A stretch of DNA of 38,868 bases from assembly GCA_903842455.1 (NCBI GenBank), contig CAIMLX010000123.1, forward strand, positions 1-38,868, given 5' to 3'. A program made the translations under genes and the position numbers. This stretch comes from an uncultured Hyphomicrobiales bacterium (lineage in GTDB: Bacteria; Pseudomonadota; Alphaproteobacteria; Rhizobiales; Devosiaceae). The notes beneath the pieces are model-generated. The model searched no databases and was not told where the DNA came from. It saw only the letters and a list, made by a program, of their open reading frames with translations. Shown in pieces: positions 14,855 to 25,097 of this stretch; the first letter of the stretch is position 1; each line of letters opens with the position of its first letter.

Positions 14855-17560
14855 TCACGACATGCCGTCCGGCGACGCCTTTGTCTCCACGAACCGCCTG
14901 TGGCGGTCCACTGGCCACGACTGGGCCCGCCATCGGGATGCCAGGACCGTTCCGGCACGCGATTTCTCGGCCCACAGCGACTGGTCGCCGACAAGGCGTA
15001 GCATGGCATCCGCAGCAGAACGATCCGGCCCAATCGGGTCGGGCACTGGTTCGACGACAAGTGCGGCCGAAGGCGCGCCGGACCATCTGGCGGCAATGAC
15101 CGGGGTGCCGGCGCACATCGCTTCGACAATCGACTGCATCGCGTCGCCCGGTCGGTGCAACGCCAGCAGGCAATCCGCCCCGGCGACCAGGTCGAGTGTC
15201 TCGCTGTCCGACAGCGCTTTGGTCACGAGGACGATGTTGGGCCGGCCCGCCGCGACACGGGAGAGCGCGGCGACGGCCAGGGGATCGCTACCCGCCCCGA
15301 CGAGGGAGAGCACGAGGCTTGCCGAGCGCGAAGTCCGGTCGAAGCCCGCCTGGAAGCTGCGGATCGTGGCGATGGCGCCCGTATGCATCGCGGGCGCACG
15401 CATGTCGAACTGGGCGAGGAAGCGGAACGGCCGGTCCCGCAGAAACACTCGGGGATGATCGATGCCGACATCCGGAGCCGGCCGGGATACGACGTGGACG
15501 AGCGTTTCCCCCCTGCCGCCCTGGGCGCGAACCATCGCGACCGCCGCATCGTCATGCACCCATATTTCGTGAAAGAGCGGCAGGGTCCGCTCGAGTCCCG
15601 GCGCTGCCACCACGGCTCCGTCGGGCCAGATACCGATGCGGTAGCGGCGCGCCCAGAGCTGCTGCGGCGTTGAAAGCATGACCTGCACCGCTTCGGTCGG
15701 ATCGCCGTGACAGATCCAGAGCCCACCCTCTCCCGGCGCGGCAGCGGCGCCTGCCGGATCGCCGCCCAGATCGTGGGGCACCACGGTGAGCGGCCAGTGG
15801 CGCACCGCCTCCAGCGCCAGCCTCGCCGCCCGACCCCGCATGCCGATATCGGACAGCTGTCCGCAGAAGACGACATCGCCTGCACCAATGGCCGAGGCTG
15901 GGAGTGGACGCGACAGTCGGCTGAGCCGCACCTGGCGCGCGATGGCCGCGACGGCCGGGGACAGGCGCTGTCGCACGCTCTCAGGCAGGGGCAACTGCAG
16001 CCAGAGCCGGCGCAGCCGATGAGGACTGCCCCGCTCGGCCCCGCGTACGCCGTCGGTCCGCCGGTCCCATTGCCGGCGAATGAACAGGCCAAGCTGCCGC
16101 TTGTCGGTCGAACCGCCGCCCTCGGCCGGCATTTCGGCATCGGGCAGCCACAACAGCAGGAGGCCGCGGCCGCCCAATTCGGGCAGGGGCTTCAACCGCA
16201 CCGAAAGCCCGAGCTCGGTGTCGCGGCCAAGCAGCAGGCAACGGACGGTGCCGAGCCCTCCTGCAGCCCCGATCCGCACCTGCTTCCTGCGCCCGCGATA
16301 GGCGTGGGCGTTGAGGCGGAGCGGTTCCCCACCCGCCTGGGCGTCGGTCAGCGGCACAACGGCAATCGCCCACTTCTTCTCGCTCCAGCGACCCGCCTTC
16401 TCGGGCGACGAGAAGCCCTCGAGGAAGACCGGGCCATCGCCCGGCGGACACGCGGCAACGCGTTGCCGTGCCAGACTCCACAGCCGGTCCATCAGCGGAG
16501 ATGGCCAGGTGACGGCGCGGAGGCGCTCCTCCGCTTGCCCCGGCGGCCGCATGAAGGTGCCCGACCGGCCAAAGGCGAAATCCTGCCGCTGCAGGGCAGC
16601 GTGCTCCGAACTGCTGCGCTGGCCCGGAGGGATCGCGCGAATACGCCACTCGCGGTATTTGGCCTCTCCTGCCGACAGGCCCAAGCCCGCGGCCGACGCT
16701 GGCAGGTCGAGTTCGGCATGGGCCTGCAATTCGCCCAGATAGGCCGCGGCCGCGCATTCCAGCCCGTAGCGACGCGTCAATGCGCCGAACTCGTCCCAGT
16801 CGATTTCGCCGGCTGCCGATGCCAAGAGGAAATAGCCTTCGGTAACGCGGGTGAAGCACTCGATCCTGTCCCATGGCTCGCAGCGCGCCATGGAGCAGAA
16901 CAACTGATGCGTCGCCGACGGGATCCGCACGGCGCGGCCATGCAGTTCCGCGTCGCGGGCGTCGAGCCGATACCGCCTGCCGAGGTCGGGGTCGTGGATG
17001 TTCCACAGCGGCCGCCAGTGCAGGTCCAGCCCGCGCTGGCTGCCGCGCTTCACCTCGACACCGGCATCGACACTGTCGATCAGCGGCGCGCCAAAATCCT
17101 CCCAGGCGTGGCCCGGCGGCAGGAAACCACCCTCGCGCAGCACGCTGACCGCCGCCGGAATGTCCTCGGGGAGAAGCAGAATGTCGTAGTCGGCCGAGAC
17201 GCGCCGCCGCTCCAGCTCGGGGGTGCGGGCGAACAGCGCCGCGCCCTTCATCAGCACGGCGCCGATGCCCCGGCTGTCGAGCGCATCGAGCGTGCTGAAC
17301 AGCAGGCGGAGCCGCAGCACGTTGTTCGTCCAGACCTGCCTGGCGACGCCACGCATGCGCGCCAGGTCCGGGTCGTCCAGCCCCTCGCGCTGGATCAGTT
17401 CGACCAGCAGCGGCAGCACCCGATGCGATTCGCCGTGCGCCGCATCCAGTGGCCCGACGGCGCGCCACTGGGAAAACGCGGCGACCGCCTCCGGTCCGGT
17501 ATGGGAGATCGCCCGCAACAGCAGGCGAGCCGGGTCACTCAGCAATCCGTTGTCGCCCAT
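14855..17560 (-). CDS. Nucleotidyltransferase / glycosyltransferase fusion protein
   Basis: A protein of about 901 residues with three apparent parts. Residues 1-290 look like the uncharacterised nucleotidyltransferase family PF14907: LMKGAAL at about 103-109 and SADYDILLL at about 122-130 give the expected Lys-Gly and Asp-x-Asp features. Residues about 370-500 resemble the beta-sandwich segment seen beside some polysaccharide glycosyltransferases (FLEGFSSPEKAGRWSEKKWA). The last 300 residues look like a GT4-like glycosyltransferase (SLVGAGSDPLAVAAL, then SIVEAMCAGTPVIAARWSGAP). The ATG at 17560 is preferred; GTG starts at 17587 (overlapping the PqqD stop) and 17608 are possible. It follows the PqqD gene, matching HPr-rel-A/PqqD systems, where a nucleotidyltransferase usually stands alone. 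Target unknown. Confidence 0.7.
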   Translation of the reverse strand: MGDNGLLSDPARLLLRAISHTGPEAVAAFSQWRAVGPLDAAHGESHRVLPLLVELIQREGLDDPDLARMRGVARQVWTNNVLRLRLLFSTLDALDSRGIGAVLMKGAALFARTPELERRRVSADYDILLLPEDIPAAVSVLREGGFLPPGHAWEDFGAPLIDSVDAGVEVKRGSQRGLDLHWRPLWNIHDPDLGRRYRLDARDAELHGRAVRIPSATHQLFCSMARCEPWDRIECFTRVTEGYFLLASAAGEIDWDEFGALTRRYGLECAAAAYLGELQAHAELDLPASAAGLGLSAGEAKYREWRIRAIPPGQRSSSEHAALQRQDFAFGRSGTFMRPPGQAEERLRAVTWPSPLMDRLWSLARQRVAACPPGDGPVFLEGFSSPEKAGRWSEKKWAIAVVPLTDAQAGGEPLRLNAHAYRGRRKQVRIGAAGGLGTVRCLLLGRDTELGLSVRLKPLPELGGRGLLLLWLPDAEMPAEGGGSTDKRQLGLFIRRQWDRRTDGVRGAERGSPHRLRRLWLQLPLPESVRQRLSPAVAAIARQVRLSRLSRPLPASAIGAGDVVFCGQLSDIGMRGRAARLALEAVRHWPLTVVPHDLGGDPAGAAAAPGEGGLWICHGDPTEAVQVMLSTPQQLWARRYRIGIWPDGAVVAAPGLERTLPLFHEIWVHDDAAVAMVRAQGGRGETLVHVVSRPAPDVGIDHPRVFLRDRPFRFLAQFDMRAPAMHTGAIATIRSFQAGFDRTSRSASLVLSLVGAGSDPLAVAALSRVAAGRPNIVLVTKALSDSETLDLVAGADCLLALHRPGDAMQSIVEAMCAGTPVIAARWSGAPSAALVVEPVPDPIGPDRSAADAMLRLVGDQSLWAEKSRAGTVLASRWRAQSWPVDRHRRFVETKASPDGMS

Positions 17561-17583
17561 GGCGCCGGGTCCGGGAGTATGCG

Positions 17584-17994
17584 TCACACGGTGCGCGGCA
17601 GGGGCCACCCTTCACTGTCATCGACTTCATGCACGGGGTCGAGCAGCAGCAGGCTTTCCATGTCGCCGAACGACTCGAGGGTCGGGTGCGCCATACCGGG
17701 CGCCGTCTGCAGCGAGGCCGCAGGAACAGCGGCTTCGACGGCCGGACGCATCAGCCCCTCCTTGGACAGTTCGGCGACGTACTGGTCGAGTGCGGCCACG
17801 AGCGCAGGGTCACCTCCGACGGCCGCGCGGAGCGTTTCCACGGAGTGCCCGCCAGCCAGGTCGTGCCAGACCATCGCTGCGGTGTCCTTCATGCTGAAGT
17901 AGCGGCCGGTATCGAGATTGATGGCGACGATCTCGCCATCGAAATCCTCCGCCGAGCATCTGGGGACGGCGACTTCCAGATAGGTGAGCGACAT
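17584..17994 (-). CDS. PqqD-family peptide chaperone (HPr-rel-A type)
   Basis: A 136-residue protein with a PqqD fold in the first 90 or so residues: VAINLDTGRYFSMKDTAAMV is the typical strand-turn-helix core, followed by a winged-helix region. PqqD-like domains bind leader peptides of ribosomally made, modified peptides and hand them to a modifying enzyme. The C-terminal 45 residues (PVHEVDDSEGWPLPRTV at the end) are not part of the fold. The ATG at 17994 has a strong GAGGAG site 8 nt upstream. Its neighbours are a nucleotidyltransferase fusion, a glycosyltransferase and a HprK-related kinase. No radical SAM enzyme, transglutaminase-like protease or asparagine synthetase is nearby, so a PQQ or lasso cluster is unlikely as it stands. 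Confidence 0.8.
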   Translation of the reverse strand: MSLTYLEVAVPRCSAEDFDGEIVAINLDTGRYFSMKDTAAMVWHDLAGGHSVETLRAAVGGDPALVAALDQYVAELSKEGLMRPAVEAAVPAASLQTAPGMAHPTLESFGDMESLLLLDPVHEVDDSEGWPLPRTV

Positions 17995-18064
17995 GGGTTG
18001 GGCTCCTCAGCGGGTGATCGGTTGTCGTGTGGTGCGGCAGCGGGATCGGCGAGTGCACTCGGGC

Positions 18065-18748
18065 TCACTTGCGGGCCGCCTCGGCGCGGCGACGGGCGAT
18101 GATGGCGTGCAGCACCGGCGCGTAGCTCTTGTCCCGCAGTGTGGTCGTGCTGTGGTTGCTGGCATGGACCCGCCGCCGGGACACAACCTGGTCGAGCATG
18201 GTGGCATGCACCCCCATGTCGATAGCACGACCGTACCACTCCATGAACTCACCTACGGCAAAACTCTCATTCAGCGGCCCGACGGTGGCGAAGGTATCGC
18301 GCCGGGTCAGCAGCGTACCGGCGGAGAAGGCCGGCATCGGATCGGGCGGACAGACCAGCCCCAGGGCGATCTCTGCTGGGAGCTCGGGCGAAACAAAGTG
18401 CTGCATGTGACCGAACACCAGCTGCCCCGGCCGATCGGCCTCTGCCACCTGCGCCTGCAGCTTGTGCGGCAACCAAATATCGTCGGCGCTGAGAAAGGCG
18501 ATCAGTTCGCCCTGCGCGACGCGCACGCCATGGTTCAGCGCCGCCGCGACACCGGCATTATCCTGCCGCACCAGCCGCGCGTCGCCACGCTGCCGGACCA
18601 GTTCCGCCGTCCCATCGGTCGAGCCGTCGTCGATCACGATGATCTCGGCAGCCGGGAGGAATTGCGCCGCCACACTGTCGATGGCCTCGGCAATGTAGCG
18701 TTCGGCGTTATGCGCCGGGATGACGACGCTGATCGGCGCGGGGTGCAT
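18065..18748 (-). CDS. Small GT2 (GT-A) glycosyltransferase
   Basis: A 227-residue family 2 glycosyltransferase. The N-terminal motif ISVVIPAHNAERYIAEAIDS, then IIVIDDGSTDGT, and the metal/nucleotide-sugar motif region FLSADDIWLP are standard. It has no membrane segment, so it should act in the cytoplasm on a nucleotide sugar. At 227 residues it is on the short side for GT2. The ATG at 18748 has a GAAGAG site nearby. It lies 70 bp upstream of the PqqD gene on the same strand. The acceptor is unknown; a modified peptide, a polysaccharide or a carotenoid are all possible from context. Confidence 0.85.
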   Translation of the reverse strand: MHPAPISVVIPAHNAERYIAEAIDSVAAQFLPAAEIIVIDDGSTDGTAELVRQRGDARLVRQDNAGVAAALNHGVRVAQGELIAFLSADDIWLPHKLQAQVAEADRPGQLVFGHMQHFVSPELPAEIALGLVCPPDPMPAFSAGTLLTRRDTFATVGPLNESFAVGEFMEWYGRAIDMGVHATMLDQVVSRRRVHASNHSTTTLRDKSYAPVLHAIIARRRAEAARK

Positions 18749-18820
18749 GGAACTCTTCGAAACGTGGCAGGCGAGTCTAGGCGATCATCGTACCGGCGGA
18801 ACGGCTGCAGGACGAAGCAC

Positions 18821-19789
18821 TCAAGCCGTGAACCGCGCATACTCCTGTGGACAAAGCTCCAGCGCCGCCGCCGCCACCCTCACGGCCGCGAGGTCCCGGC
18901 AGAGTGCAGCCGTGTCGAAGCGCCCCTCCGGCTTCCCGCTCATGTATGGCTTCACGATGGTCGTCTCGAAGGCCTGGTAATCCGCGGCGGTAGCATCGGC
19001 GACCAGCGCGCGGAGCGGGATCGCCGACAGTTCGTCGTCGTCCATCTCGACACCTCCGGCCCTCGCGAAGTAGCGGCAGGCCGAACAGCGCACCCAGAGC
19101 GTGTGCAGCACTTCAAGCGTCCACGACAGCTGTGAATGGTTGACCGGATCGAGCCGGCGAAACGGGTGCAGGTCCTTGATGATGAACCGCCCCTCGGCGT
19201 CCCGGATATAGCCTATATAGCCGACGAGGTGCTGCCGGACGGCGATGTCCAGTTGCTGCCGCGCCAGCTCGACATTGACGGCGAGATAGCGCTCGGCGGG
19301 AAAGCCGGGCGAGATGCCGATTCCCGACCACTCCCTGCGCCACTCGAAGACGGAGAACCACGACACCCCGTCGGAGGTCGTGACGTTGCCGTAGCCGAGG
19401 CACGGAACTACCGGATATCCGGCGTCCCGCAGCAGCGCGCTGACGCGATACTCCGTCGCGGCCTGCTGGAACGAGGCGCCGCCGAGCACGGCGTTGTCGT
19501 GTCCCGAGGCGACATCCTCCATCATCCGGCCGTCGAAATCGAAGGTCACCGCCATCGGCCCGGTCCGCAGATACTGACCGTAGCGGACACTCCCGCCCAG
19601 CAGCCCGGCGCCCTTGAGCTTGAGCAGGGCATCGCGGCGATCGGGATGAGGCAGCAGCACGGCGCGGCTGCCGTCGAGGATGCCGAGCCGGCGGCCGTCG
19701 ACGGTGCGCTTGAACCAGGCCCGGACGCGCCGCGCCACGGCATCGTCCAGGTGGCGCGTCTCCACGATAGGTCTGTCGATCTGCTCCAT
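18821..19789 (-). CDS. Unrecognised protein with SelO-like (pseudokinase) motif pattern
   Basis: A 322-residue soluble protein I cannot assign firmly. Residues about 55-62 read LLKLKGAG, and after a gap GGASFQQAATEYRVSALL is followed by GYPVVPCLGYG (about 103-133). This order recalls the KGAG...REFLxSEAMxxLGIPT region of SelO/YdiU, a kinase-fold protein that AMPylates targets. Further on FIIKDLHPFRRLDP might be the catalytic-loop region, and a CxxC pair (RCSACRYF) lies near residue 255. The match is weak and short. The ATG at 19789 was chosen over upstream codons because it leaves a 71 bp divergent gap to the HprK-like gene. It is probably the first gene of the minus-strand set that includes GT2, PqqD and the fusion gene. 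Confidence 0.5.
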   Translation of the reverse strand: MEQIDRPIVETRHLDDAVARRVRAWFKRTVDGRRLGILDGSRAVLLPHPDRRDALLKLKGAGLLGGSVRYGQYLRTGPMAVTFDFDGRMMEDVASGHDNAVLGGASFQQAATEYRVSALLRDAGYPVVPCLGYGNVTTSDGVSWFSVFEWRREWSGIGISPGFPAERYLAVNVELARQQLDIAVRQHLVGYIGYIRDAEGRFIIKDLHPFRRLDPVNHSQLSWTLEVLHTLWVRCSACRYFARAGGVEMDDDELSAIPLRALVADATAADYQAFETTIVKPYMSGKPEGRFDTAALCRDLAAVRVAAAALELCPQEYARFTA

Positions 19790-19860
19790 GCCTTCAGCTA
19801 TGCGATGTGCGGAGCATCTCCGGTAGCGTGATTCCCACGAACCCCATAAGGCCAACCCCA

Positions 19861-20916
19861 TTGCAGTCCCTGCGCCTCAGTTCGCTGGAGCACCTTGACC
19901 GTTCGACGATCGTGCCGTGGATTCGATCCGTTTTCGACAGCCTGTCCGGCGCCGATCCCGAGGCGTTCCATACCCAGATGATCGCGCCCGCCGGTACCCC
20001 CATCGCCTTGCAGCTCGATGATCCGCGGCTCGCGGCGCCCTATGGCGGCCGCTTCGTCGGCTGGGGGAATGACGCCCCGCCGTTCTCGACCCACTTCGTG
20101 CTCACCGGCCAGCATCCCGGCCTGACGGTGCTCCCGGAGTGGACCGATCCGGCGTTCGGCCAGGCCGACCTCGATACCCTGCTCGCCGGCGAGGGGCTCA
20201 GGGCCTCGTACCAGGATCGCAACTGGCGATTGTTCGACACCGTCACTCGCACCGGCGTGCAGATTTCACTGCGACAGGGCGCCCTGCGTCCCTGGCACGC
20301 CGGGCTGCTGCTGGTCGAATGGACGCTTCAATCAGCGGGGCTGTCGCTCACCCACGCCGGCACCGTCGGCCTCGACGGCCGCGGCCTGCTGCTGGTCGGG
20401 CAGAGCGGATCGGGTAAATCCGGCACCACGCTGGCCGGGCTCGCCGAAGGGCTCCAGACGGTCGGTGACGACTTCGTCGCACTGGGGTTCGGTGAACAGC
20501 CCGTGGCCCGCTCGGTCTTCCCGCTGGCACGCCAGGACCCCGCTGGCCTCGACCGGATTGCGGGGCTGCGCCAGCGCGTCGCCCGCCACCGCGTCAACCA
20601 CCTGGGCAAGTTCGAGTTCGACCTGCGCCCGACCTTCCCCGGCGCCTTCGTCGACGAACTCACGCTCGATGCCATCGTGCTGCCGGTGATCTCGGATGCG
20701 GCCACGCCGTCGATCACGCCGATCCCGCCCGCTGATGCGATGGTCGAGCTGCTGCGATCCAACCCCTTCCGCTATGTCGGCAGCCCCGGCTCCCGAATGG
20801 CCCGTTTCGCCGCCCTGACCAGAAGCCGGCCATGTTTCCGGCTGACCTTGTCCACTGATGCGGGAGCGAACGGCCGCGCGCTGCGCCACCTGCTCGAGGG
20901 ACTGGCGCCGCACTGA
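19861..20916 (+). CDS. HprK-related kinase (HPr-rel-A type)
   Basis: A 351-residue P-loop protein whose C-terminal half resembles the HPr kinase/phosphorylase core. The P-loop GQSGSGKSGTT lies at about residue 180-190, and TVGDDFVAL about 15 residues later corresponds to the HprK Asp-Asp strand. The N-terminal 160 residues are not the standard HprK N-domain. Such HprK-related proteins accompany PqqD-type chaperones; related ones phosphorylate modified peptides in some RiPP clusters. No HPr is encoded here. The frame opens at a GTG at 19807, but the TTG at 19861 has TAAGG 9 nt upstream and was preferred; a GTG at 19828 is also possible. It is divergent from the minus-strand PqqD set. Confidence 0.72.
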   Translation: MQSLRLSSLEHLDRSTIVPWIRSVFDSLSGADPEAFHTQMIAPAGTPIALQLDDPRLAAPYGGRFVGWGNDAPPFSTHFVLTGQHPGLTVLPEWTDPAFGQADLDTLLAGEGLRASYQDRNWRLFDTVTRTGVQISLRQGALRPWHAGLLLVEWTLQSAGLSLTHAGTVGLDGRGLLLVGQSGSGKSGTTLAGLAEGLQTVGDDFVALGFGEQPVARSVFPLARQDPAGLDRIAGLRQRVARHRVNHLGKFEFDLRPTFPGAFVDELTLDAIVLPVISDAATPSITPIPPADAMVELLRSNPFRYVGSPGSRMARFAALTRSRPCFRLTLSTDAGANGRALRHLLEGLAPH

Positions 20917-21540: not shown

Positions 21541-22425
21541 TCAGCGCAGGCCGAGCCAGCGCAGCATTGCCTCGAGCGGGCTCGGAACGCGCACCAGCCG
21601 GAAGCCCAGGTTGTCGGGCGGCGCGCCCGTGCTGCAACCGCCGGACTGTGCATCACGCACGAAATCGCTCATCAGCGTGCGGTGCCGGCCCTCCAGTTCC
21701 TTCACGCCGCATGCCTCGACATGGCTGACTGTCTCTGCGTCGGGCCCGAGAGTCGTCCGGCTGCTGCAGGTCGACGTCCACTCCCACACCGAGCCCGCGA
21801 GGTCGGCGACGCCGAATTCGTTCATGCCGAAGGTGCCGCGCGCAACGGGCGCGGCCGCAGCCCCGCCCAGCGCGCTTTCGCGCGCATAGGCCGCCAGCCC
21901 GCGCTCCGCTGGATTGTCCGAGCCTTCGAGCGCCAGGGCGGGGTCGACCGCGCGGCTGCCGGCGGCGAACACCCACTCGGCCACCGTGGGCAGCCGCCAC
22001 GCCTCCCCGGTCTTGTCCGACAGCCAGCGGGCATAGTCGATGGCGTCGTCGTAGCTGACGCCGGTCGCCGGCACGTCGCCGGAGCCGCGGCGGCGTGGCT
22101 CGGCCTTCTTGCACGCCGCCTCGGCGACGCAGCGCGCATACTCGGCGGCGCTGACCTGGTAGGTCATGATCTCGAGCGATACAGGTGCGGCAACCGCGAC
22201 GAGCGGCCCGTCCACCACCCGACCGTCGCGCAGGAAATCTCCCGGTGCACGATAGGCGTAGGCGCGCGGCGCCACGATGATCGTCTCGGGAGCGAGGCTG
22301 GCTTCCGCAGCCGGCCACAAGCTCACCGCCCCGCTCTGCAGGCCGATCGTGACGAGGAGCGCGGCCAGCAGCAGGCCGGGCAGCGCCAGGGCGGCGCGGC
22401 CATCATGGGCAAGGGCGGTAGCCAT
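21541..22425 (-). CDS. nirV: NirV, FGE-sulfatase-family protein linked to NirK
   Basis: A 294-residue protein of the formylglycine-generating-enzyme-like (SUMF1/EgtB/PvdO) fold with an N-terminal membrane anchor at about residues 14-34. Family segments are VSYDDAIDYARWLSDKTG, WRLPTVAEWVFAA, FGVADLAGSVWEWTS and, at the end, NLGFRLVRV. In many denitrifiers a gene of this family, nirV, follows nirK; its exact function is not settled. Here it starts 58 bp after the nirK stop on the same strand, with AAGG upstream of the ATG at 22425. Confidence 0.85.
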   Translation of the reverse strand: MATALAHDGRAALALPGLLLAALLVTIGLQSGAVSLWPAAEASLAPETIIVAPRAYAYRAPGDFLRDGRVVDGPLVAVAAPVSLEIMTYQVSAAEYARCVAEAACKKAEPRRRGSGDVPATGVSYDDAIDYARWLSDKTGEAWRLPTVAEWVFAAGSRAVDPALALEGSDNPAERGLAAYARESALGGAAAAPVARGTFGMNEFGVADLAGSVWEWTSTCSSRTTLGPDAETVSHVEACGVKELEGRHRTLMSDFVRDAQSGGCSTGAPPDNLGFRLVRVPSPLEAMLRWLGLR

Positions 22426-22483: not shown

Positions 22484-23632
22484 TCAGGCGTCGATCGGCG
22501 TCGGCGGCATGACCTGGGTCATCAGGTCGTCGTTCCACTCGCCGCCCACCATGAAGTGGGCAGTGGCACCCAGTTCGACCGCCTCGATCAGGTTGTGGTT
22601 GACGTAGGCGTAGATGCCCGGCTGCAGGAACGTGTAGATCGCGGCACCCGCACAGCCGCCCGGAATATGCCAGGTCTCGAGGTCGACCTGCGGGGCATTG
22701 GCGAACTTGCCGGTGGCCCAGACAAAGTCGCCGTGGCCGCCGATCAGGTGCGGACGGGTGTCCCGGTTGGCCTGCGAGTGCACGATCAGCACCGTCTCGC
22801 CGACATTGGCCTGCATGGCGTTCTCGCCGGTCAGCGCTCCCACCGCGCCGTTGAACACCTCGTGCGTGGGGGTCAGCGTCCGCATCACCTGCAGCATGTC
22901 GTCATAGCCTTCGCCGGCCGACTCGTAGGTCTTGTAGTTACCGTCGGCGTCCTTGGGGATGTAGAAGTCCTGCTCGCCGACATAGTAGACCCGGTCGTAG
23001 GCCAGCGGCTTGCCGACTCCGTCCTTCAGGCCATCGCGGGGCAGCACCATGATGGCGCCGTTCATGCCCGACACGACATGCCACGGGATCATCGGGCCGC
23101 CCGGCGCGCAGTGGTAGACGAAGACGCCGGTCCGCGTCGCCTTGAAGCGCAGCTTCACCTGCTCGCCCGGGTTGATCAGCGTCAGCCCGCCACCGCCCAG
23201 CGCGCCGGTCGCGGCGTGGAAGTCGATGTTATGCTGCAGCTCGTTGGTGTCGGGGTTGATCAGCGTCAGCTCGACATAGTCGTTCTGGTGCACCACCATC
23301 AGCGGACCAGGCACCGAGCCGTTGAAGGTCATTGCCGGAACGGTGGTGCCGTAGTCGTCGATGACCAGCTGCTTTTCCTCGATGACCATCGTGAACTGCA
23401 CGACCTTGGGGCCACCCGTCGCCACCTGTTCGTGAGCATGCACGAAGGGCGGTTTCACCAGTTCCACCTGCACGCGCGGCAGGTCGGCGAGATCGGGGAC
23501 CGGACCGGTGGTGACGCCCGCATCCTCGGCAGCGGCCGGTACAACAGCCATGAGCGTGCCGAACACGCCGGCAAATGCTGCTGCCCCGAGCAGTGTCCGG
23601 CGCGACAGCTCCAGATCGTCATTACGGATCAT
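22484..23632 (-). CDS. nirK: Copper-containing nitrite reductase
   Basis: A 382-residue periplasmic enzyme that reduces nitrite to nitric oxide. The N-terminus carries a Tat signal ([11 protein letters not shown] from residue 10) ending near AAAED at about 37. By comparison with characterised NirK proteins, type 1 Cu ligands are His134, Cys175, His185 and Met190. Type 2 ligands include His139 and His174 plus the His in NHNLIEA, and the catalytic pair is Asp137 and His295. The frame extends upstream, but the ATG at 23632 starts the signal peptide and has GGAG 6 nt upstream. An FNR/NnrR-type box is centred about 84 bp upstream of the start. Pseudoazurin, its likely electron donor, is divergent. 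Confidence 0.96.
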
Positions 23633-23708
23633 TTTATTCTCCACGGATCGACAGGCGGAAAGACGCCCGTTTCGATGGTGGAGATACGATGCTTTTCCGA
23701 GACTGAAT

Positions 23709-23722
23709 TTGCGCGGGATCAA
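23709..23722. promoter_or_regulatory. NnrR/FNR-type box for nirK
   Basis: The 14-mer TTGCGCGGGATCAA has one NnrR-like half (TTGCG) and one FNR-like half (ATCAA). Its centre is about 84 bp upstream of the nirK start. A class II position (-41.5) would place the -10 element at 23681-23686, where the minus strand reads TATCTC. This supports nirK as the target. Confidence 0.6.
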
Positions 23723-23762
23723 GGAATACTGCGACTATTTGCTCGAGCAACCGAACCGAAAT

Positions 23763-23776
23763 TTGCGCCACATCAA
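23763..23776. promoter_or_regulatory. NnrR/FNR-type box for pseudoazurin
   Basis: The 14-mer TTGCGCCACATCAA has the same TTGCG-N4-ATCAA layout as the box at 23709, 54 bp away. Its centre is about 80 bp upstream of the pseudoazurin start, nearly the same distance as the other box is from nirK. The pair therefore looks like one site per divergent promoter. Confidence 0.6.
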
Positions 23777-23848
23777 AGAACATTTGTCCGAACTGGGCGA
23801 CATGGCGCAGGCGGGCATCACCCGGATGCCCGGCCATGGAGACTACAG

Positions 23849-24283
23849 ATGCGTATCCTGCAACTTGCGGCTGCCGCCTTTATCACCCTTGCGGCTGGTC
23901 CGGCCTTCGCAGCCAACTTCGATGTCCAGATGCTCAACAAGGGTGCCGATGGCGCCATGGTGTTCGAGCCGGCGCTGGTCAACGTGGCGGTCGGCGACAC
24001 CGTCACCTTCCTCCCCACCGACAAGGGACACAATGCCGAGACCATCCCGGACATCCTCCCCGCCGGCGCCGAGGCCTTCAAGGGCAAGATGGGCGAGCAG
24101 ATCGTCGTGACCTTCGCCGTCCCCGGCGCCTATGGCATCAAGTGCGCCCCCCACCTTGGCATGGGCATGGTCGGCCTGGTTGTGGTCGGCGACGCGCCGG
24201 TCGACAAGGCGGCGATCCTCGGCGTCAAGCTGCCCAAGAAGCCGCGCGGGCGCATCGAAGCCATGCTCGCCCAGCTGCCGTAA
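23849..24283 (+). CDS. Pseudoazurin, periplasmic blue-copper electron carrier
   Basis: A 144-residue cupredoxin with a Sec signal peptide (cleavage after AFA at about residue 21). The type 1 copper ligands are His61 (KGHNAE), Cys99, His102 and Met107 ([10 protein letters not shown]), with the spacing of characterised pseudoazurins. Pseudoazurin passes electrons to NirK in the periplasm, which fits the divergent nirK gene. The ATG at 23849 begins the signal peptide. The frame is open much further upstream without coding sense. Confidence 0.95.
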
Positions 24284-24307
24284 ACCTGCAGGGCAGCCCC
24301 CTGCCGC

Positions 24308-24321
24308 TTGACCTTCATCAA
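24308..24321. promoter_or_regulatory. FNR/NnrR-type box upstream of the Crp/Fnr regulator
   Basis: The 14-mer TTGACCTTCATCAA matches TTGAC-N4-ATCAA, one base from the FNR consensus. Its centre is about 72 bp before the start of the Crp/Fnr regulator gene. Control of the regulator by itself or by another FNR-family protein is a reasonable inference. Confidence 0.55.
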
Positions 24322-24386
24322 GGCACCAGCCTCGCTGCGATGCGAGGAACTGGTGCGCGAGGCAGGTCGCGGGCGGGGGGCGCAGC

Positions 24387-25097
24387 ATGCACATCCAGAT
24401 CGAACGGTCCGAGGTCGAGCATCTGGCGCTGTTCGGATCGCTGGACACCGCCGGGCTCGACGAGATCGTCGGCGCCGCCACGGGCCGCCGCTATCGCGCG
24501 AGCGACACCGTCTTCGAGCAGGGCGAGCAGGCCACCCACTTCTTCGTCCTCGTCCGCGGCCGCCTGCGGGTCACGCAGGTGACCAGCGAGGGGCAGCAGA
24601 TCATCATCCGCATGGTCAATCCGGGCGACCTGTTCGGCATCGCCAAGGCGCTGGCCACGCTCGACTATCCCGGAACAGCCACCGCCGTCGCCGAAAGCTG
24701 CGCGCTGTGCTGGCCGATGCAGATGTGGACCGGCCTCTTGGAACGCCACCCCAGCCTCGCGATACAGGCGATGCAGACCATGGGCAGCCGCCTGCTCGAA
24801 GCGCAGTTGCGGGTGCGCGAGCTGTCCACCGAAGAGGTGGAGCGGCGCGTCGCCCACGCGGTCCTGCGCCTCGCCAACCAGTCGGGGCGCAAGGAGCCAG
24901 GCGGGGTGCGGATCGACTTTCCGATCTCCAAGCAGGACATCGCCGAAATGACCGGCACGACGCTGCACACCGTATCGCGCATCCTCACCGCCTGGGAAGG
25001 CGCCGGCCTCGTCGAAGGCGGCCGGCAGAAGCTGCTGGTGCGCGATCCGCACGGCCTCGTCATGGTGGCAGACGGCCTGCGTCCCTGCCTGCTCTAG
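24387..25097 (+). CDS. Crp/Fnr-family transcriptional regulator (NnrR/DNR-like)
   Basis: A 236-residue regulator with an N-terminal cyclic-nucleotide-binding-like beta barrel (residues about 15-125), a dimer helix, and a C-terminal winged helix (ISKQDIAEMTGTTLHTVSRI, about 186-205). The N-terminal cysteine cluster of oxygen-sensing FNR is absent, as in NnrR/DNR regulators, which respond to nitric oxide. It sits between pseudoazurin and nnrS, and similar boxes precede the surrounding genes, so it probably controls this module. It ends 37 bp inside the convergent DUF1858 gene. Confidence 0.88.
   Translation: MHIQIERSEVEHLALFGSLDTAGLDEIVGAATGRRYRASDTVFEQGEQATHFFVLVRGRLRVTQVTSEGQQIIIRMVNPGDLFGIAKALATLDYPGTATAVAESCALCWPMQMWTGLLERHPSLAIQAMQTMGSRLLEAQLRVRELSTEEVERRVAHAVLRLANQSGRKEPGGVRIDFPISKQDIAEMTGTTLHTVSRILTAWEGAGLVEGGRQKLLVRDPHGLVMVADGLRPCLL

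Follow-up and report, generated by a model that had tools for sequence, protein, structure and literature searches.

What is made by a PqqD-type protein, an HprK-like kinase, a nucleotidyltransferase (NTase) and a glycosyltransferase whose genes lie side by side, and on what do these enzymes act? The question is raised by a cluster at positions 14855 to 20916 of contig CAIMLX010000123.1, from an uncultured Hyphomicrobiales bacterium of the Devosiaceae. This one entire contig is the window of our analysis (38,868 nucleotides); the genome comprises 4.56 Mb in 280 contigs. Our main new observation is a conserved C-terminal tail on the PqqD protein of the cluster (136 aa; 17584..17994, minus strand), a protein whose domain is of the RiPP recognition element (RRE) type, RiPPs being ribosomally synthesised and post-translationally modified peptides. 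A preliminary description of this DNA had listed five clustered genes, for an NTase–GT4 fusion, PqqD, a GT2 glycosyltransferase, a 'SelO-like' protein and an HprK-like protein; all five are present.

A module recurring in scattered bacteria

The window cluster represents a conserved module in its own right, copies of which are found in scattered bacteria of different groups. The module contains PqqD, an HprK-like kinase, one to three small GT2 glycosyltransferases and a PF14907 NTase, which is sometimes fused to a GT4-like domain; the commonest gene order is PqqD, HprK, GT2, NTase. Two seeds were used in the searches. The first, the relatives of the window protein that has no named family (the 'SelO-like' one), gave five loci and was found in 3 of 136 genomes of the family, the window's own included. 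The second, a profile of the PqqD protein, was run on class and phylum genomes. At E ≤ 1e-5 it matched 26 places in 20 of the 385 class genomes (the tail being complete at 9, shortened at 3, all of family f42, and absent at 14), and at E ≤ 1e-8 it matched 29 of the 299 phylum genomes, with the tail in the window's own genome and four others; these searches scored a limited number of candidates per genome, and absence from them is no proof. Tailed loci number 15 in 12 proteobacterial genomes, L002 and L011 among them, plus one on a cyanobacterial plasmid. L002, from Pelagibacterium lacus (Devosiaceae), shares its sequence with L010, from a genome of the window's own family, and the two are the same locus. 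The 15 tailed sequences are interdependent, three being from the Devosiaceae family and three from f175. No match was found in phage records in a follow-up search.

Around the 15 loci, selected by their tailed PqqD, the stretches fetched contain GT2 at 15/15, HprK at 13/15 and NTase at 11/15; several stretches are short (3.7 kb at L050, 5.2 kb at L051, 8.4 kb at L040, and 6.0 kb fetched of 15.9 kb at L102). Based on 248 gene calls at 18 loci, the families common to most locus groups are GT2 (11 groups), NTase (9), PqqD (9) and HprK (8), and the next family reaches 3. The grouping of these genes in the window exceeds chance, because PqqD, HprK, GT2 and NTase recur together in other genomes. The view of the preliminary description that the four belong together is thus borne out, and their co-occurrence outside the window's genome is clear. 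At untailed PqqD loci, taken as controls, an HprK open reading frame (ORF) is present at 13 of 38 (about 3 kb each, several being near-duplicates).

The window's genome has a second copy of the module on contig C129 (locus L040), with PqqD, HprK, three GT2 genes and another NTase–GT4 fusion. Directly upstream of this copy (C129: 667-2106) lies a weak sulfotransferase-like gene (PF03567, E = 0.0018, below cut-off). A plasmid of Crinalium epipsammum PCC 9333 encodes PqqD, an NTase, an HPr kinase, FkbM, a GT2 enzyme, a second NTase and an ABC transporter; the module therefore crosses phyla. Also, two unnamed proteins beside the module, at L051 (4058-5062) and L123 (12780-14180), have by eye a similar stretch, YHRSGW. 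Among open-licence papers in PubMed Central (PMC), no published description of the module or of a comparable fusion of an RRE and a tail was found, in agreement with the earlier suggestion that the system is undescribed.

The PqqD protein and its tail

The PqqD domain of the window protein passes the PF05402 cut-off (27.3 vs 23.4 bits), and this part of the original family assignment stands. By a profile of 11 PqqD relatives, the closest to this domain are the lasso RRE TbiB1 (8.5e-15) and the RREs of paeninodin and of linear polyphosphorylated peptides (LPPs) in the complexes 9x90 and 9x8z.

Averaged over all pairs of the 15 tailed sequences, identity amounts to 0.533 in the tail, against 0.315 in the PqqD domain and 0.173 in the linker; in 103 of 105 pairs the tails resemble each other more closely than the domains do. 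The tail consensus is D[MLVI]..[LI][LI]..DP[IV]H[DE]..GWP. Its conserved segment is, in the window protein, DMESLLLLDPVHEVDDSEGWP (residues 111-131; 17602..17664, minus strand), with a mean pairwise identity of 0.607 over the same 15 sequences; D119, H122, G129, W130 and P131 are found in 15/15 tails as well as in the Crinalium protein. A profile of the tail only had 12 hits at E ≤ 1e-5 among the 385 class genomes; among the 299 phylum genomes it had 6 at E ≤ 0.001. Each of these significant matches falls at a place also found by the PqqD profile, so the tail is seen on PqqD proteins only. Six weaker matches (E 0.004-0.044) are located elsewhere in other reading frames and are regarded as chance.

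Before the segment, the window protein has a recognition-like motif, MAHPTL (residues 101-106; 17677..17694, minus strand), a relaxed form of YxxPx[LVI]. According to excerpts of PMC12710340, several groups of RREs (lasso, PQQ/PqqD and sactipeptide) recognise the sequence W/Y/LxxP/L/I. The relaxed motif, hydrophobic-x-x-P-x-[LIV], occurs at a fixed spacing in 10/15 tails, against a mean of 0.1 and a maximum of 2 in 2000 shuffles, a result which overstates the case, since the test was defined after the sequences had been seen and the sequences are non-independent. The strict form, [YWF]xxPx[LVIFA], is present in 6/15 tails, and the window copy does not have it.

A separate substrate peptide was sought among 261 small ORFs around the 15 loci, within a limit of 7 kb. 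None is common to unrelated loci, in a comparison that recovers the tail, used as control, in 95 of 102 pairs and that would miss a variable precursor carrying just a short motif. The pattern [YW]xxPx[LVIFA] occurs in 8 of the 261 ORFs, by chance or otherwise, and none of these is conserved. The only conserved peptide at module loci is the PqqD tail. The preliminary description had held that any substrate peptide must be encoded elsewhere and had suggested that co-occurrence across genomes might reveal a conserved small ORF. No such ORF emerged from the set compared, and its argument is left half standing: a conserved separate ORF is indeed missing there, but the conserved tail is a candidate in cis. 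The tail also accounts for some of the oversized proteins of PF05402; as excerpted, a 2025 survey gives 21% of PF05402 proteins as larger than discrete-RRE size with no other Pfam domain (PMC12710340).

The enzymes and the neighbouring genes

The gene of the HprK-like kinase (369 aa; 19807..20916, plus strand) runs against the other four and diverges from the 'SelO-like' one; its true start may lie further downstream. The kinase matches PF07475 at E = 2e-4 (21.4 bits, below the 33.3-bit cut-off). Its P-loop, GQSGSGKS, and its VGDD motif are intact, and the P-loop and DD motif are retained in 15/15 aligned HprK-like homologues, the window's included. In the kinase tree (midpoint root, for drawing), a single group (support 99/96) unites the kinases from 14 tailed loci with those from 2 partly tailed ones of f42. 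The 12 HPr-rel-A kinases fall outside it, as do 12 of the 13 kinases near untailed PqqD genes. The tailed state alone needs two changes on the tree, because the f42 kinases are nested inside the group with modest support (83/85, 81/55). Long branches are those of L040 and L073; the untailed L073 falls with HPr-rel-A.

The NTase–GT4 fusion (917 aa; 14855..17608, minus strand) matches PF14907 (NTP_transf_5) at E = 3e-17 over residues 60-291, and its C-terminus is GT4-like (PF13692, 5.2e-5, 24 bits, below the 27-bit cut-off). The DxD motif (SADYD) is intact in the window protein and is kept in 12 of 15 aligned NTases; it is lost in the operon copies of L002 and L011 and in the first copy of L046. 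Each of these three is accompanied by a second, intact copy, and the Crinalium plasmid is similar; at L047 and L048 just one of the two NTase copies fits the motif pattern (judged by pattern only). Pairs of one NTase with DxD and one without are seen at L002 (12868-14298 and 6298-7380), L011 (5667-6827 and 12160-13275), L046 and L123. The small GT2 glycosyltransferase (227 aa; 18065..18748, minus strand) matches PF00535 at E = 3e-32. Judging from the intact kinase and NTase motifs, the enzymes of the module look active.

The remaining gene of the cluster (about 18821..19789, minus strand) is an accessory one, present at 3 of the 15 tailed loci (the window, L002 and L011). Its product matches no Pfam or NCBIfam family at E ≤ 1. 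The preliminary description had seen SelO-like motifs and a possible AMPylator in it, and we reject this identity: it shares with SelO a short KGxG motif and possibly a kinase-like fold, but there is no PF02696 match, the profiles do not align (hhalign probability 0.5%), and a true SelO is encoded elsewhere in the same genome (G000:C238:27832-29181, 462.8 bits). K56, K58, E112 and D205 are invariant among seven relatives. With an AlphaFold2 model of the protein (pLDDT 76.8, pTM 0.78), Foldseek gave 491 matches at E ≤ 10, mostly protein kinases and none at E ≤ 0.001; the best is COQ8A (E 0.054, TM 0.27), and SelO ranks tenth. The protein may possibly have an atypical kinase fold, and a sugar or glycan kinase would be a guess. 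Four loci (L003-L006) carry a relative, and in the stretches examined there neither PqqD nor HprK is matched. Three of these (L003, L004 and L006; not L005) have GT2-like neighbours, and from this context the protein also exists outside the module.

Concerning the flanks, carotenoid genes lie downstream of the window copy, namely crtY (above the TIGR01789 cut-off), phytoene synthase and crtI (a desaturase-type oxidoreductase). Upstream is a molybdopterin-type gene, and the copy stands between carotenoid and molybdopterin/nitrite reductase genes. A NirV-like gene is found at 21541-22425, and at 22484-24582 a NirK-like multicopper gene adjoins a pseudoazurin-like ORF (judged by eye from the translation).

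Possible roles of the tail and comparison with known systems

Our preferred reading, which we put forward tentatively and at somewhat less than even confidence, is that of a protein-scaffolded phospho-glycosylation module with the PqqD-type RRE protein as its hub. No separate conserved peptide was found and the tail is the sole conserved one; the simplest reading is therefore that the RRE presents its own tail. It would bind the leader-like motif and the near-invariant segment in cis, in place of a separate precursor, and the hub would gather the HprK-like kinase, the PF14907 enzyme and the small GT2 and GT4 enzymes, which may act in that sequence. By analogy with PsmN, the PF14907 enzyme would be a hexosyltransferase working on the phosphorylated peptide. 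The enzymes would most likely act on the tail and yield a protein or peptide decorated with phosphate and sugar. That the PqqD protein is a hub with a self-presented tail, in whatever role, seems to us about an even call; that the tail itself is the acceptor is plausible, at distinctly less than that. A narrower proposal is doubtful, namely that the RRE is its own substrate and has a phospho-glycan assembled on an invariant Asp, His or Trp by the kinase, an NTase acting as hexosyltransferase, and between one and three glycosyltransferases. If true, attachment at Asp, His or Trp would be chemistry new to peptides, and what is made would be a constant part of the cell and not a variable natural product.

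Several observations weigh against this preferred reading. RiPP cores are usually variable, whereas the PqqD tail hardly varies. The recognition motif is absent in 5/15 tails, including the whole family L099-L101, and the f42 PqqD proteins (L046, L047, L048) stop after LLALDPP (LFALDPP in L048), with no H..GWP and with their enzymes kept. In the stretches fetched, L043 and L050 have no HprK, and L041, L043, L045 and L102 have no NTase. The shared-gene comparison of 18 loci found no peptidase or exporter conserved between them, and there is therefore nothing that would obviously release a product. The AlphaFold2 model of the PqqD protein, from a two-row alignment, has a pLDDT of 41.3 and is not usable for cis binding. 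Finally, the tail has no conserved Ser, Thr or Tyr (S108 in 4/15, S114 in 3/15), and the PqqD protein of L100 has none at all from the motif through the C-terminus. An LPP-like phosphorylation of Ser in the tail is thereby weakened. Given that no tail hydroxyl is conserved, the modification would fall on a residue of another kind, or else the tail serves for docking and the acceptor lies elsewhere.

Docking is a serious alternative, and we consider it a fair way short of probable. The tailed PqqD would then be an adaptor only, whose tail docks or activates the kinase, the NTase or the glycosyltransferases, with the acceptor peptide, sugar or lipid coming from elsewhere. The near-invariance of the tail from Alphaproteobacteria to a cyanobacterium is typical of a binding motif, its marking of one kinase clade is consistent with kinase binding, and the lack of a conserved hydroxyl residue fits this role too. 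Excerpts of PMC12710340 describe RREs as delivering substrates to enzymes and raising enzyme activity. Yet no other conserved peptide was found near the 15 loci (within 7 kb, some contigs being short), and a separate leader would face competition from the recognition-like motif present in cis.

It is unlikely that the module belongs to the normal synthesis of exopolysaccharides or lipid-linked glycans, in which PqqD, HprK and NTase would modify a surface glycan. GT2 and GT4 genes do occur in or around every tailed locus, a PMT_2-like gene is present at L043 and an ABC transporter at L002 and on the Crinalium plasmid (and there only), and clusters for LPPs and paeninodins are, in the text excerpted from PMC13381572, often hosted by capsule loci. 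However, the loci have in common no gene of Wzx/Wzy type and none for priming or export, and the window copy has the carotenoid and molybdopterin/nitrite reductase surroundings described above. Even less probable is an origin from a lasso-peptide or LPP cluster that has decayed or is incomplete. RRE, HprK and NTase do occur in LPP clusters and in those of paeninodin-type lasso peptides, and the PqqD profile matches lasso RREs; against this, the four genes persist across families and phyla, the shared genes include no cyclase, leader peptidase or separate precursor, and the kinase and NTase motifs are intact. That the glycosyltransferases make carotenoid glycosides with the genes directly downstream is very improbable, as carotenoid genes are not common to the other module copies.

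Membership in the HPr-rel-A system, to which the preliminary description had linked the cluster, is rejected as extremely unlikely. The logic of PqqD, HprK-like kinase and NTase is alike, an HprK-like kinase stands beside a PF14907-type NTase at 9 of 12 HPr-rel-A loci, and TIGR04352 (HprK_rel_A) is the best NCBIfam match of the window kinase. That match, however, reaches 23.4 bits against a cut-off of 200, which places the kinase outside the model, and the genome search and the kinase tree concur: TIGR04352 has 0 matches in the window's genome at E ≤ 1e-10 (a member above cut-off is found in 41 of 200 phylum genomes), and the kinases form a separate group. GT2 is found within about 1.5 kb at 0/12 HPr-rel-A loci, and PqqD was detected at 1/12, as an untailed protein of 97 aa. 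TIGR04353, which we take to be the PqqD of the HPr-rel-A system, was not among the four NCBIfam models matched at E ≤ 1.

RRE, HprK-like kinase and PF14907 NTase recur as a trio, and in most cases its product has yet to be established. With the candidate peptide built into the adaptor, a defined 136-residue protein, the product of the trio becomes directly testable, and the tail is a simple sequence handle for finding further copies, such as the one on the cyanobacterial plasmid.

Paeninodin- and pseudomycoidin-type lasso systems are alike in having an RRE (B1), an HprK-like kinase and an NTase that act on an RRE-bound peptide; in pseudomycoidin, PsmK adds phosphate, and PsmN, an NTase homologue, then adds hexoses on the phosphorylated Ser (excerpts of PMC9266682). 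The shared genes of the module differ in lacking a lasso cyclase, a B2 peptidase and a separate precursor; no cyclase or B2 leader peptidase was found in the scanned window genes or the locus-shared genes, and no genome-wide search was made. The LPP systems of Bacillota resemble the module in their discrete RRE, HprK-like kinase, NTP transferase and YxxPx-type motif, and in having no macrolactam cyclase. As far as the excerpts of PMC13381572 go, their YxxP motif is required for RRE binding, HprK phosphorylates Ser of the RRE-bound peptide and requires Ser (Thr and Tyr variants are not phosphorylated), the final product is not identified, and the roles of LPPs and paeninodins remain unknown. 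The module loci likewise combine RRE, HprK-like kinase and NTase in one locus. By the same excerpts, the LPP precursor is a separate peptide whose core varies, and the systems include a peptidase (SpI-like) and an exporter (MsbA-like). No separate precursor with a YxxPxVL leader motif was found among the 261 small ORFs, the motif standing on the PqqD tail instead, and no SpI-like peptidase or MsbA-like transporter was common to the 18 loci compared. In the module the RRE itself carries the candidate peptide, which is nearly invariant, and small GT2 genes replace the peptidase and exporter.

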